DNA of 37,949 nt from Dietzia aerolata (GTDB taxonomy: Bacteria > Actinomycetota > Actinomycetes > Mycobacteriales > Mycobacteriaceae): positions 1-37,949 of the forward strand of contig NZ_JAALDM010000130.1 of the NCBI RefSeq assembly GCF_014144865.1, in the 5' to 3' direction. The notes under the pieces were generated by a model. The model was not told the DNA's origin. It made no database searches and worked only from the letters and a program-made list of their open reading frames with translations. The position numbers and the translations under genes are program-made. This document shows positions 10,389 to 14,241 of the stretch, one piece after another. The number at the start of each line of letters is the position of its first letter. Position 1 is the first letter of the stretch.

Positions 10389-11423
10389 TCAGCCCAACGA
10401 GGCGATCGCGGCGAGGACCTCGTCGACCACCGCCGGCGGGCCACCGGGGAGCGTGACTGCGGTCGCGATCCGGGCATTGGGCACGTGGCCCCGCTGCCCG
10501 CGCCTGTCCTCGACCGTCATGCCCCGGGTGTGCTCGCCGCGGCACTCGACACGAACGTGGCTCTGCTCCGCCACCACACGGTGCGGATGCAGTGCGAGCC
10601 ATGCCACGAACGGATCGTGCACCTGCGCCAGATAACCCTCGCCCACGGAGTCGTGGAACTCGAAGTACAAGCGCAGGGCGTCGACGAGCGCGCGGGTCAG
10701 CGGGGTGTCGGAGGTGGCGAGCAGCCGCTCCGAGTGCGCCGGAGTCCACAGCGCCTGCTCCGTCAGATTCAGTCCGCACCACAGGGGCGCCGACACCTGT
10801 GAGAAAGAGGCGTCGGGGGCGGCGGACCGCGCGCGCTCCCACGCGAGGCACACGGCGTCGGCGGCCTCGGGGTCGACGTCCACGTTCCATTCGCTGGTCG
10901 GCGTGGTGTTGCCGGGATGCCCACGGAAGGTGCCACCCATCACCACGAGCTCGGACACCAGTCCCGGCAGCCCCGGCTCGAGCACCAATGCCTGGGCCAG
11001 GGTGGAGGAGGGCCCGGTCACCACCGCGACCAGCTCACCGGGATGTTCGCGAGCAGAGTCCACCCAGAGCCCGGCACCACTGCGGGGATCGAGCCGGGCC
11101 CGTGTTGTCGTCGTCCCATGGTCTTTTCCGACCGTCAGGTCGGCGTACCCCGCGCCCCGGGGGCCGTGGGTTTCGGGCGTGAACACGTGCGGCACCACGC
11201 TCGCACCAGCCGCCCCGGCACACACCGGCAGCGGGGGAGCACCGGCGAGGTCCAACCACGCCAGGGCGTTGGCCACGGTGTCGTCGAGTCCCACGTTGCC
11301 GGCGGTACACACCACGCCGACCAACTCGATCCGCCCGGCCAGGTGCTGGGCGACGAGGTAGGCGATCGCTAGGGCGTCGTCGATCCCCGGGTCGCAGTCG
11401 AGGAGGACGGGCGTGGGTTTCAT
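10389..11423 (-). CDS. Inosine/uridine-preferring nucleoside hydrolase family protein
   Basis: This is a 344-aa nucleoside hydrolase. It cleaves N-glycosidic bonds of ribonucleosides to give base plus ribose for salvage. The calcium-binding N-terminal signature DCDPGIDDA (D9, D11, D15, D16) is intact. VVTGPSSTLAQAL, ELVVMGGTF, SEWNVDVDPEAA and a late HDPFVAW supply the other active-site elements. Substrate preference cannot be read from sequence. ATG 11423 overlaps the stop of the DinB-like gene by 4 nt (ATGA), so it is the last gene of a translationally coupled operon starting at the TfoX-like gene. The longer ORF (start 11795) runs back into that gene and is not used. Confidence 0.9.
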   Translation of the reverse strand: MKPTPVLLDCDPGIDDALAIAYLVAQHLAGRIELVGVVCTAGNVGLDDTVANALAWLDLAGAPPLPVCAGAAGASVVPHVFTPETHGPRGAGYADLTVGKDHGTTTTRARLDPRSGAGLWVDSAREHPGELVAVVTGPSSTLAQALVLEPGLPGLVSELVVMGGTFRGHPGNTTPTSEWNVDVDPEAADAVCLAWERARSAAPDASFSQVSAPLWCGLNLTEQALWTPAHSERLLATSDTPLTRALVDALRLYFEFHDSVGEGYLAQVHDPFVAWLALHPHRVVAEQSHVRVECRGEHTRGMTVEDRRGQRGHVPNARIATAVTLPGGPPAVVDEVLAAIASLG

Positions 11424-11968
11424 CGCCTGTAGAGGCCCGTGAGGAGGACGTCGCGGGTCAGCTCGAGGTGGCCGAGATGTCCGGCGACGTCGTGGAGGAT
11501 GTGGGCGAGGACCCAGTCGATCGTGAACGTGCCCGAACGCCGGGCGGTGTCCACGTCGAACGCCGTGCCCGTCGGGTGGGCGAGCTCGCCTCGGACAAAC
11601 GCGGCGGCGGTCCACTCGGGAAGGCGGGCGACGAGCGCGTCGAGACGGTCGAGTTCGGGACCGACCGGCCCGGAGTACGCGAACTCCGAGGTCCGGTCGC
11701 GGTCGACCGCCTCGCCGCCCAGGCACGCCGCGCCCCACGAGGTCACCACGCCGCAGAGGTGGTGGACGAGCGCCGCCGCCGTGTTGGTGGGCCACCCCGA
11801 GTCGTGGGCGGTGGGCGCCGTGTGGACCAGCGACTCGTCGGAATCTCCGCCGAGATCTGCCACTGCCGCGCGCAGCGCCGGCAACAGCTGCGTGGTGAGG
11901 ATCTGCTGGACGGCCCGGCCGGGGTCACCGGAAACGGGCGCGTCACCCGACGCGGTCGGGTCGCTCAC
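11420..11968 (-). CDS. DinB/DUF664-like protein
   Basis: This is a 182-aa protein resembling the DinB/DUF664 four-helix bundle, also called mycothiol-dependent-enzyme-like. VHHLCGVVTSWG (about residues 68-79) offers the first metal-ligand His. The C-terminal HILHDVAGHLGHLE matches the family's H-x3-H ending. Members bind a divalent metal and often use a low-molecular-weight thiol; this genome makes mycothiol (mshC is in the window), so a thiol-transferase role is plausible but unproven. GTG 11968 overlaps the SDR stop by 4 nt (GTGA), and the 3' end overlaps the nucleoside hydrolase start by 4 nt. Confidence 0.75.
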   Translation of the reverse strand: MSDPTASGDAPVSGDPGRAVQQILTTQLLPALRAAVADLGGDSDESLVHTAPTAHDSGWPTNTAAALVHHLCGVVTSWGAACLGGEAVDRDRTSEFAYSGPVGPELDRLDALVARLPEWTAAAFVRGELAHPTGTAFDVDTARRSGTFTIDWVLAHILHDVAGHLGHLELTRDVLLTGLYRR

Positions 11969-13443
11969 CACGGGCTCGGCTCGAAGTCCTTGAGGAAACA
12001 GCCGTAGAGGTCCTCGCCGGCCTCGCCGCGCACGATCGGATCCACCACGCGGGCGGCACCGTCCACCAGGTCGAGCGGGGCGTGGAAGCCCTCCTCGTGC
12101 AGCCGGACCTTGGTCACGTGCGGGCGCTCGTCGGTGATCCAGCCGGTGTCGACGGCGGTCATGAGGATGCCGTGCTCGGTGAACATCTCCTCCGCCGAGG
12201 TGCGGGTGAGCATGTTCAGGCCGGCCTTGGCCATGTTGGTGTGCGGGTGGCCGGCGCCCTTGTAGCGGCGCGAGAACTGCCCCTCCATCGCGGAGACGTT
12301 CACCACGTATTTGCGGCGCGCGGCGGAGGCGGCCATCGCCGGGCGCAGCCGGGAGACGAGGATGAACGGCGCCACCGAGTTGCACAGCTGCACCTCGAGC
12401 ATCTCCATCGGCTCGACCTGCTCCACGGTGGCCACCCAGCTGTTGTGGTCCACCACGTCCGGCAGGAGCCCGCCGGCGTCGATCGCGGTCCCGGCGGCCA
12501 TCCGCTCGAGCGACGACGACCCGGCCTGCAGCGCCAGGGCGGCGATGTGGTCGGCCTCCCGCTCGGCCTCGTCGTGGCCGATCAGCGCGGACTCGCCGCC
12601 CATCAGCGCGGCCGGATGCAGCTCGGACGTGCGCCCCATCGTCACCATCGGCACCTCGGCGGCGCGGCCGGTAATGGGCGCGTTCTCGCCCTCGACCAGG
12701 CCGGAGTAGGAGCCGGGGGAGCGGCGCACGGTCTGCGCGGCGTTGTTGATGAGGATATCCAGCGGCCCGGCGGCGGCGACCTCGTCGGCCAGCGCCACCA
12801 CCTGGGCGGGATCCCGCAGGTCCACGCCCATCACGTGGATGCGGTCGGCCCAGTCCGGGTAGTCGTCCATCTTGGCGAACCGCCGCACGGCGTCGCGCGG
12901 GAACCGGGTGGTGATCGTGACGTCCGCGCCCGCCCGCAGCAGCATCAGCGCGATGTACATGCCGATCTTGGCGCGGCCACCGGTGAGCAACGCGCGGCGG
13001 CCGGTGAGGTTCATGGCCGGGTCGCGGCGGGCACGGTTGGCGGCGGCGCACTTCGGGCACAGCTGGTGGTAGAACGCGTCGACCTGCGTGAATCGCTGCT
13101 TGCACACGTAGCAGGCCATCGCACGTTGCAGGTGGCCGGCGATCGCACCGGGCGTGTTGGAGACCAGCCGGATCCCGGCGGTCTCGTCGTCAATTCGGGT
13201 GGGGGAGCCGGTCGCGGTGGCCTCGATGACCGCCTTGTCCGCCTCCTGCCGCTCACGTCGCACCTCGGCGCGCCGCGCCTTCTTGAGGAGCTTGAACATG
13301 TGGCCCACCGACCGCTGCACCCGGATCGAATCGGGGTGGTCGGACTCCAGCGCGGCCGCCTGCTCGAGGACGCGGTGGAAGGTGTCGAAGTCGTCGGGAT
13401 CGATGCCGGTCACCAGGACACGGTACGACGACGACGACGCCAA
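11965..13443 (-). CDS. Atypical SDR-family protein with N-terminal zinc ribbon
   Basis: This 492-aa protein has two parts. Residues 1-140 contain a basic helical region (FKLLKKARRAEVRRERQ) and a four-cysteine knuckle, CYVC (111-114) and CPKC (129-132). Residues 145-492 form a short-chain-dehydrogenase fold: TGGRAKIG (154-161) in place of TGxxxGxG, NNAAQ (233-237), and Ser384 in VNVSAMEG. The position four before the conserved Lys406 is Thr402, so the usual YxxxK Tyr is missing; Y394 is nearby. The SDR part is larger than normal, with an insertion around 240-340. The start is TTG 13443, 3 nt after the peptidase stop, with an in-frame stop two codons upstream, so the start cannot be earlier. 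NAD(P) binding is likely; the reaction is unknown. Confidence 0.8.
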   Translation of the reverse strand: MASSSSYRVLVTGIDPDDFDTFHRVLEQAAALESDHPDSIRVQRSVGHMFKLLKKARRAEVRRERQEADKAVIEATATGSPTRIDDETAGIRLVSNTPGAIAGHLQRAMACYVCKQRFTQVDAFYHQLCPKCAAANRARRDPAMNLTGRRALLTGGRAKIGMYIALMLLRAGADVTITTRFPRDAVRRFAKMDDYPDWADRIHVMGVDLRDPAQVVALADEVAAAGPLDILINNAAQTVRRSPGSYSGLVEGENAPITGRAAEVPMVTMGRTSELHPAALMGGESALIGHDEAEREADHIAALALQAGSSSLERMAAGTAIDAGGLLPDVVDHNSWVATVEQVEPMEMLEVQLCNSVAPFILVSRLRPAMAASAARRKYVVNVSAMEGQFSRRYKGAGHPHTNMAKAGLNMLTRTSAEEMFTEHGILMTAVDTGWITDERPHVTKVRLHEEGFHAPLDLVDGAARVVDPIVRGEAGEDLYGCFLKDFEPSPW

Positions 13444-13446
13444 GCG

Positions 13447-14241
13447 CTAAACGCTCCGCCCGGTCTCGGGTGGGACGTCTCCCGCTCGTAGCCCGGCGAG
13501 CGCGGCGTCCATGGCACGCTCCTGATCGGTCCGCGATCCCTGCGCTCGTAGCCCGGTGGGGCCGGACTGGTCGACGCGGCGGGCGTACGCCTCGGACACC
13601 AGCTGGGCGTGGGCCTCGAACCCGAGGCTCTCCGGGCCCGGCGCCGGCGTTCCTGCGATCGGGGTCTGGATTCCGGCTACCTGGGTCTGGATCCCGGCGA
13701 TCAGGGCCGGGTTCGCCGTGAGCGCGACGCGCCAGTCATAGGCACGCCGTCCCAACCTGACCTGCTCGACCAGCGCCAGGAGCACGTACCGCGGGCCGAT
13801 GACGCGTCCCTGCCAGATGTGCACGAGTTCGTGGACAAGCGTCGGGGTGGCACAGGGTCGGGCCGTACCCGCCGGCCACTTCGCATCACTCGGGCGGGCT
13901 GCCTCGTCTGCATCGTGTGCGGCTGTGCGGCCCTGCACGTCGCAGACCCGGTGCACGACGCCCGGGTCTTTGCCGAGATAGATCAGGCCGGGCAGCGCGA
14001 AAGCTCTGGGGTGGGGGATCCCCGGGACGTGTCCGCGGCGGATGACGATGGCGTCCGGGTCAACGGTGTCGCCGAAGATCGCGTGCAGGTCATCGCGGAC
14101 CTCCCGCGGGAGGTGCAGGCGGGGCGGCGCCACCCCCGCGATATCGAGAATCCGGTCAACGGCCCGGGCCGCGGTGGCCAGGACCGAGGCGAGGCCATCG
14201 GCGAGACGGACTCCGGCGCGCGGGCGGGCCGGCTCGGTCAT
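13447..14241 (-). CDS. HExxH-motif protein, putative metallopeptidase
   Basis: This is a 264-aa protein with a zinc-peptidase motif HELVH (137-141) in the context TPTLVHELVHIWQG. This is like the DUF4157 and related minimal gluzincin/zincin families, in which the third ligand lies C-terminal. No signal peptide is seen; a moderately hydrophobic N-terminal stretch (about 11-37) is amphipathic. A heptad-like repeat (IAGIQTQ, VAGIQTP, IAGTP) around residues 178-195 is followed by a region with Glu and His residues (GFEAHAQLVSEAYARR). The true substrate is unknown. ATG 14241 overlaps the TfoX-like stop by 4 nt. It could be an inactive relative. Confidence 0.65.
   Translation of the reverse strand: MTEPARPRAGVRLADGLASVLATAARAVDRILDIAGVAPPRLHLPREVRDDLHAIFGDTVDPDAIVIRRGHVPGIPHPRAFALPGLIYLGKDPGVVHRVCDVQGRTAAHDADEAARPSDAKWPAGTARPCATPTLVHELVHIWQGRVIGPRYVLLALVEQVRLGRRAYDWRVALTANPALIAGIQTQVAGIQTPIAGTPAPGPESLGFEAHAQLVSEAYARRVDQSGPTGLRAQGSRTDQERAMDAALAGLRAGDVPPETGRSV

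Follow-up and report, generated by a model that had tools for sequence, protein, structure and literature searches.

In the window, the whole stretch of 37,949 nucleotides of Dietzia aerolata DNA that was analysed, one minus-strand gene encodes an SDR protein that lacks two of the four catalytic residues of this superfamily. Judged by alignment, its tetrad reads Asn-Ala-Thr-Lys, i.e., Ser and Tyr are both lost and Asn355 and Lys406 are retained. The subfamily, here called the finger-SDR family for the four-Cys finger fused to it, is genuine, conserved and unusual, yet its members carry the label "SDR family NAD(P)-dependent oxidoreductase" (two annotated family records). We consider the chances about even that the protein is an enzyme which derives from the SDRs, has diverged from them, binds NADP(H) and works with an active site that is rebuilt or assisted by the substrate. 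Few enzyme superfamilies are as large as the SDRs, whose members mostly owe their annotation to homology. The family offers a clean natural case of an active site rebuilt upon a fixed cofactor scaffold, in which conservation narrows the candidate residues to a handful. All features are listed in Table 1.

Table 1. Position of the gene, its motifs and its neighbours in the window.
Feature	Positions	Strand	Basis or remark
Whole gene	11965..13443	-	492 codons from TTG at 13443
N-terminal helices, residues 16-31 and 37-75, Arg/Lys-rich	13219..13398	-	AF2 models, pLDDT mostly >90
TATG..RIDDET.G segment, residues 76-90	13174..13218	-	close relatives (A2) vs distant clade
Four-Cys finger, residues 101-140 (C111, C114, C129, C132)	13024..13143	-	invariance and predicted order
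TGGRAKIG, residues 154-161, glycine motif for cofactor; Lys159 at middle glycine	12961..12984	-	
NNAAQTVRR, residues 233-241	12721..12747	-	N233, N234, A235, Q237, T238, R241 invariant
Insertion, residues 242-344	12412..12720	-	length across family 68-126 residues
Asn355, tetrad Asn position	12379..12381	-	invariant; aligned to canonical helix consensus Asn
NVSAMEG, residues 382-388; Ala385 in catalytic Ser column, Glu387 at +2	12280..12300	-	alignment to 25 SDRs
HPHTNMAK, residues 399-406; Thr402 in Tyr column, Lys406 kept	12226..12249	-	
Mycothiol-S-transferase/DinB-like (PF04978), downstream	11420..11971	-	34.3 bits, cut-off 27
Inosine-uridine-preferring nucleoside hydrolase (PF01156), downstream	10389..11423	-	240 bits
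264-aa ORF with HELVH, directly upstream	13447-14241	-	

The open reading frame is the one given in the original prediction and is a Dietzia gene, the protein matching Dietzia genomes at 94-95%. The GC content at codon positions 1, 2 and 3 (0.70, 0.48 and 0.96) together with a dN/dS of 0.04-0.05 in pairs among three Dietzia copies indicates a genuine gene under strong purifying selection. TTG is the first start of the frame. In the Dietzia alimentaria homologue the nearest start codon aligns with a GTG of the window at 13413 (residue 11), and this GTG is perhaps the true start, which would give a protein of 482 aa.

For the comparison within the family, 148 sequences (the window and 147 loci) were reduced to 121 that are distinct in the last 390 residues, and residues were counted over these. 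As 114 of the 121 come from the close clade, the invariance is partly a matter of kinship. Over the aligned core, the distant clade (L037-L041 and a Deinococcus plasmid copy, L057) and the close clade are on average 43.5% identical, and 81 positions are invariant in all 121 sequences. In addition three alignments were made: A1 with 17 hand-chosen members, A2 with the window and 40 of 80 loci retained at an 85% cut (41 rows), and A3 with the N-terminal parts of the window and of 16 hand-picked loci out of the 40 in A2.

The protein matches Pfam adh_short (PF00106) with 61.4 bits, against a cut-off of 26.6. The best AlphaFold2 model has a pLDDT of 82 and a pTM of 0.82 (the remaining four of the five models range from 66.1 to 76.5) and arranges the chain as helices at residues 16-75, a finger at 101-140 and an SDR domain at about 145-492. 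This modelled domain aligns with tropinone reductase II (2ae2_A) with a VIA Z of 24.1 and an rmsd of 2.5 over 235 residues. By profile match and predicted fold the protein is thus a member of the SDR superfamily. With classical SDRs (PF00106; FabG, tropinone reductase) it shares the Rossmann fold, the order of the motifs and the tetrad Asn and Lys, whereas the Ser is replaced by Ala385, the Tyr by Thr402 and the middle Gly by Lys159, and the insertion of about 100 residues and the fused finger are added.

The active-site positions were assigned by profile-profile alignment of the 17 members to 25 SDRs encoded in the window's genome (probability 99.8). This genome gave 50 PF00106 matches, from which the best 30 loci were taken, and five of these were dropped as they had no ORF with both glycine motif and YxxxK; the 25 are therefore selected for Tyr, not for Ser. 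Lys406 falls on the catalytic Lys and Thr402 on the catalytic Tyr, both as originally predicted, and GHPH forms four extra residues just ahead. NVSAMEG pairs without gaps with NLSSISG, in which the second Ser of the pair is the catalytic one; its counterpart is thus Ala385, and Ser384 matches the residue before it. The column of Ala385 holds Ser in 25 of the 25 SDR rows (by eye), and a simple count at the position 13 residues ahead of the Tyr found Ser in 20 of 23, two of the 25 SDRs being uncounted. Ser384, which had been taken for the catalytic Ser, was rejected: its aligned column is mixed in the SDRs. In the family, Ser384 is Thr in one of the 121 sequences. N355, A385, E387, K395, H399, P400, T402, N403 and K406 are each identical in 121/121, and at the place of YxxxK every sequence reads Thr402-N-x-x-Lys406; H401 is kept in 114 and is Asn in the other seven. 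The claim of a missing YxxxK tyrosine therefore stands but understates the change, since the catalytic Ser is gone too.

That the protein is a dehydrogenase in which another Tyr, be it Tyr246, Tyr112 or, within the close clade alone, Tyr394, fills the catalytic place is in our view highly improbable. Two tyrosines are invariant (121/121). Y112 belongs to the finger, and Y246 follows the first residue of the NNA motif by 13 positions; in SDRs this motif lies next to the active site. Judged from the sequence, either of them could in principle act as substitute acid, but their placement at the nicotinamide is conjecture, and the loss of the Ser as well speaks against an otherwise ordinary dehydrogenase. 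Tyr394, named in the original prediction as the residue that might occupy the catalytic position, is present in 114 of the 121 distinct sequences and in all 41 rows of A2. It is replaced by Met, Phe, Leu, Arg, Ser or Asn in the other seven, and the loop that holds it (residues 388-396) is predicted with a pLDDT below 50; for both reasons it was rejected as the family-wide catalyst, which leaves Y246 and Y112 as the candidates. The seven relatives without Tyr394 retain E387, H399, T402 and K406. A displaced Tyr is found in the mitochondrial 2,4-dienoyl-CoA reductase, where it lies two residues after the catalytic Ser, whereas the finger-SDR family has Glu387 at this place (121/121) and no YxxxK.

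On the cofactor side of the site, TGxxxGxG is absent and the motif reads TGGRxKxG in 121/121, with Arg157 and K159 both present in every sequence, in line with the earlier remark that TGGRAKIG takes the place of the usual glycine motif; Arg180 belongs to the same invariant variant. Pteridine reductase has the glycine motif TGxxxRxG, which the motif of the finger-SDR family resembles. The predicted insertion of roughly 100 residues was also found; it separates the NNA motif from the Asn helix. N233 and T402 lie 169 residues apart, against 64-80 in the SDRs of the same genome (measurable in 14 of the 25). Most of the insertion is variable; Y246, E253, D322, D329, N334 and W336 are invariant.

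The N-terminal part carries the CYVC and CPKC pairs of the original prediction, and both CxxC pairs are present in every relative examined, C111, C114, C129 and C132 being kept in 121/121 each. The four-Cys module is likely a zinc finger, although putative. In the predicted order, a strand (101-110) is followed by C111/C114, a second strand (117-122) and C129/C132, which open a helix (130-140). Of the "zinc ribbon" first proposed the four Cys are confirmed, and in the model this order of strands and helix looks closer to a treble clef than to a ribbon. Binding of nucleic acid through it, one of the two options first suggested, stays conjectural. When the window itself was scanned, no profile matched the N-terminal module above its cut-off; the finger reached 15.1 bits with DUF2039 in the window (cut-off 27), with a best E of 0.0062 among the 17 members. 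Neither Foldseek (best E 3.3, a RING finger) nor VIA (best Z 2.5) gave a fold match for the module, and this absence is no proof of a new fold. Between helices and finger, residues 76-78, 83-88 and 90 of the TATG..RIDDET.G segment hardly vary across the 41 rows of A2, and the distant clade differs there.

An additional domain at the N-terminus, in which finger and helices are conserved, combined with the invariant loss of the tetrad Ser and Tyr, could also belong to a pseudoenzyme, that is an NADP(H)-binding sensor that reports the redox state to a partner via helices and finger and has no catalysis. Human HSCARG/NMRAL1 is the model for such NADP(H)-sensing pseudoenzymes. The original prediction offered a non-canonical oxidoreductase or an NAD(P) sensor, which was the right pair of options, based on too small a loss of residues. 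We regard the sensor as unlikely. Glu387, His399, Asn403, Lys395 and Lys406 are all invariant, which seems to go beyond the needs of cofactor binding, and the polar site residues Glu387, Lys395, His399, Thr402 and Asn403 are unchanged despite the distance between the two clades. The pocket of a decayed enzyme would be expected to drift, whereas here the site varies no more than the cofactor motif; an enzyme is therefore favored over a sensor. Invariance in the pocket would, however, also be expected if a sensor always bound one ligand. The lack of a conserved operon fits a sensor. No regulator was found among the named recurrent direct neighbours, which counts against it but says little as most neighbour clusters are unnamed.

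For the favored reading, a divergent NADP(H)-binding enzyme, the following arrangement can be proposed. NADP(H) would occupy the cleft usual for SDRs, where Lys406 would contact the nicotinamide ribose, and Arg157, Lys159 and Arg180 the cofactor phosphates. Proton transfer might be carried out by Glu387 or His399, possibly by Tyr246; alternatively, the substrate could take over this task, as it does in eugenol synthase and SimC7. We guess that the substrate is anionic, because Arg241 and Lys395, both basic and invariant, stand in motifs lining the SDR pocket. The finger at the N-terminus probably steadies the subunit or docks a partner. A bolder version would make the family a new SDR catalytic class: Glu387 and His399, with the aid of Thr402, Asn403 and Lys406, would do the acid-base work of Ser-Tyr, the fused finger would take part in a substrate or partner site and the reaction would be an undescribed one. 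This we consider rather unlikely.

SDRs without the Tyr are already known (SimC7, eugenol synthase, WbjB/CapE), and the finger-SDR family is a further variant among them. SimC7 is described as a Tyr-less SDR with Ser-Ile-His and a substrate-derived proton (PMC5039031, Cell Chem Biol 2016); it keeps the Ser and loses the Lys, the reverse of what is seen in the finger-SDR family. Eugenol synthase has also lost the Tyr and kept the Lys, and a substrate hydroxyl is reported to take the place of the Tyr hydroxyl (PMC1991597, PLoS One 2007); in contrast to the present protein it is a plant phenylpropanoid enzyme. For the nucleotide-sugar enzymes WbjB/CapE, Met is reported at the Tyr place of YxxxK and a catalytic Thr is proposed (PMC5774825, PLoS One 2018). 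This Thr lies elsewhere, whereas in the finger-SDR family a Thr occupies the Tyr place itself. For two other SDRs the literature gives an active-site Asp in pteridine reductase (PMC10618315) and an ordinary catalytic triad in a plant SDR (PMC6003104). The finger-SDR family is not named in the titles or opening abstract lines of the matches listed from the open-licence literature.

WbjB/CapE are reported to act on UDP-sugars without the Tyr (PMC5774825), and by analogy the protein could be an NADP+-dependent enzyme without net redox change, of the epimerase, dehydratase or lyase type, which holds its cofactor tightly and acts on a nucleotide sugar or another phosphorylated substrate. The invariant basic residues in the pocket motifs would suit such a substrate, and so would two neighbours in the 105 loci compared: glgC, which immediately precedes the gene in 8, and a nucleoside hydrolase, which follows it within 8 kb in 21. 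These neighbour links, however, are limited to few lineages. WbjB and CapE are extended SDRs, whereas the finger-SDR protein aligns with the classical ones. We judge a non-redox enzyme of this kind quite improbable.

The surroundings of the gene vary. In the Tsukamurella locus the hydrolase (40% identity, local alignment) and the DinB-like gene (37%) are kept and the upstream ORF is not. This 264-aa ORF, whose HELVH we take to be a HExxH-like metal-binding motif, matches neither Pfam nor NCBIfam at E 0.001 and does not resemble the ORF that takes its place in Tsukamurella. Recurrent neighbours in the 105 loci are a DUF2784 protein (17), MeaB (17), DinB/MST (6) and glgC (near the gene in 9), and an ABC-transporter cluster (named by eye) occurs at scattered places in 20. 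The names were checked on examples (two for glgC). Neighbour genes were called by a script based on amino-acid composition, which can overlook small genes; some of its calls are wrong-frame ORFs. A function based on the operon was rejected, as over the 105 loci the neighbours follow lineage or scatter. The varying neighbourhoods fix no substrate and give no pathway that would back a reaction.

Of the 396 genomes sampled from the window's phylum, the actinobacterial one, 37 have relatives (E <= 1e-30), with a patchy distribution; in the window's own taxonomic family 5 of 15 sampled genomes carry the gene, the window's genome included. In the scan of genome contigs at least 589 of at least 593 pattern matches were confirmed as relatives, and the best 80 of the at least 589 were kept. 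Among plasmids 28 records match; most of the query is covered in only four, which come from Tsukamurella, Streptomyces (two) and Deinococcus. The 18 pattern matches on viral contigs yielded no confirmed relative. The Deinococcus plasmid copy stands as a member beyond the phylum, genomes having been sampled within the window's phylum; it is a distant copy with a finger, and its N-terminal part is shorter and different. Two further contigs that seemed to extend the spread, titled Sporosarcina beigongshangi (L121) and Acidobacteria bacterium (L128), were rejected because both genomes fall in the window's phylum: the phylum samples around the two contain the same genomes as each other, with hits at the coordinates seen in the sample of the window's phylum. 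Their record titles look wrong. In both, glgC lies directly upstream, like in the Arthrobacter loci. Within one genus a subgroup (L021, L027, L028, L030-L032 and L034) has HPNTNAAK for HPHTNMAK and NNATQTVRR for NNAAQTVRR, and perhaps represents a second substrate type.
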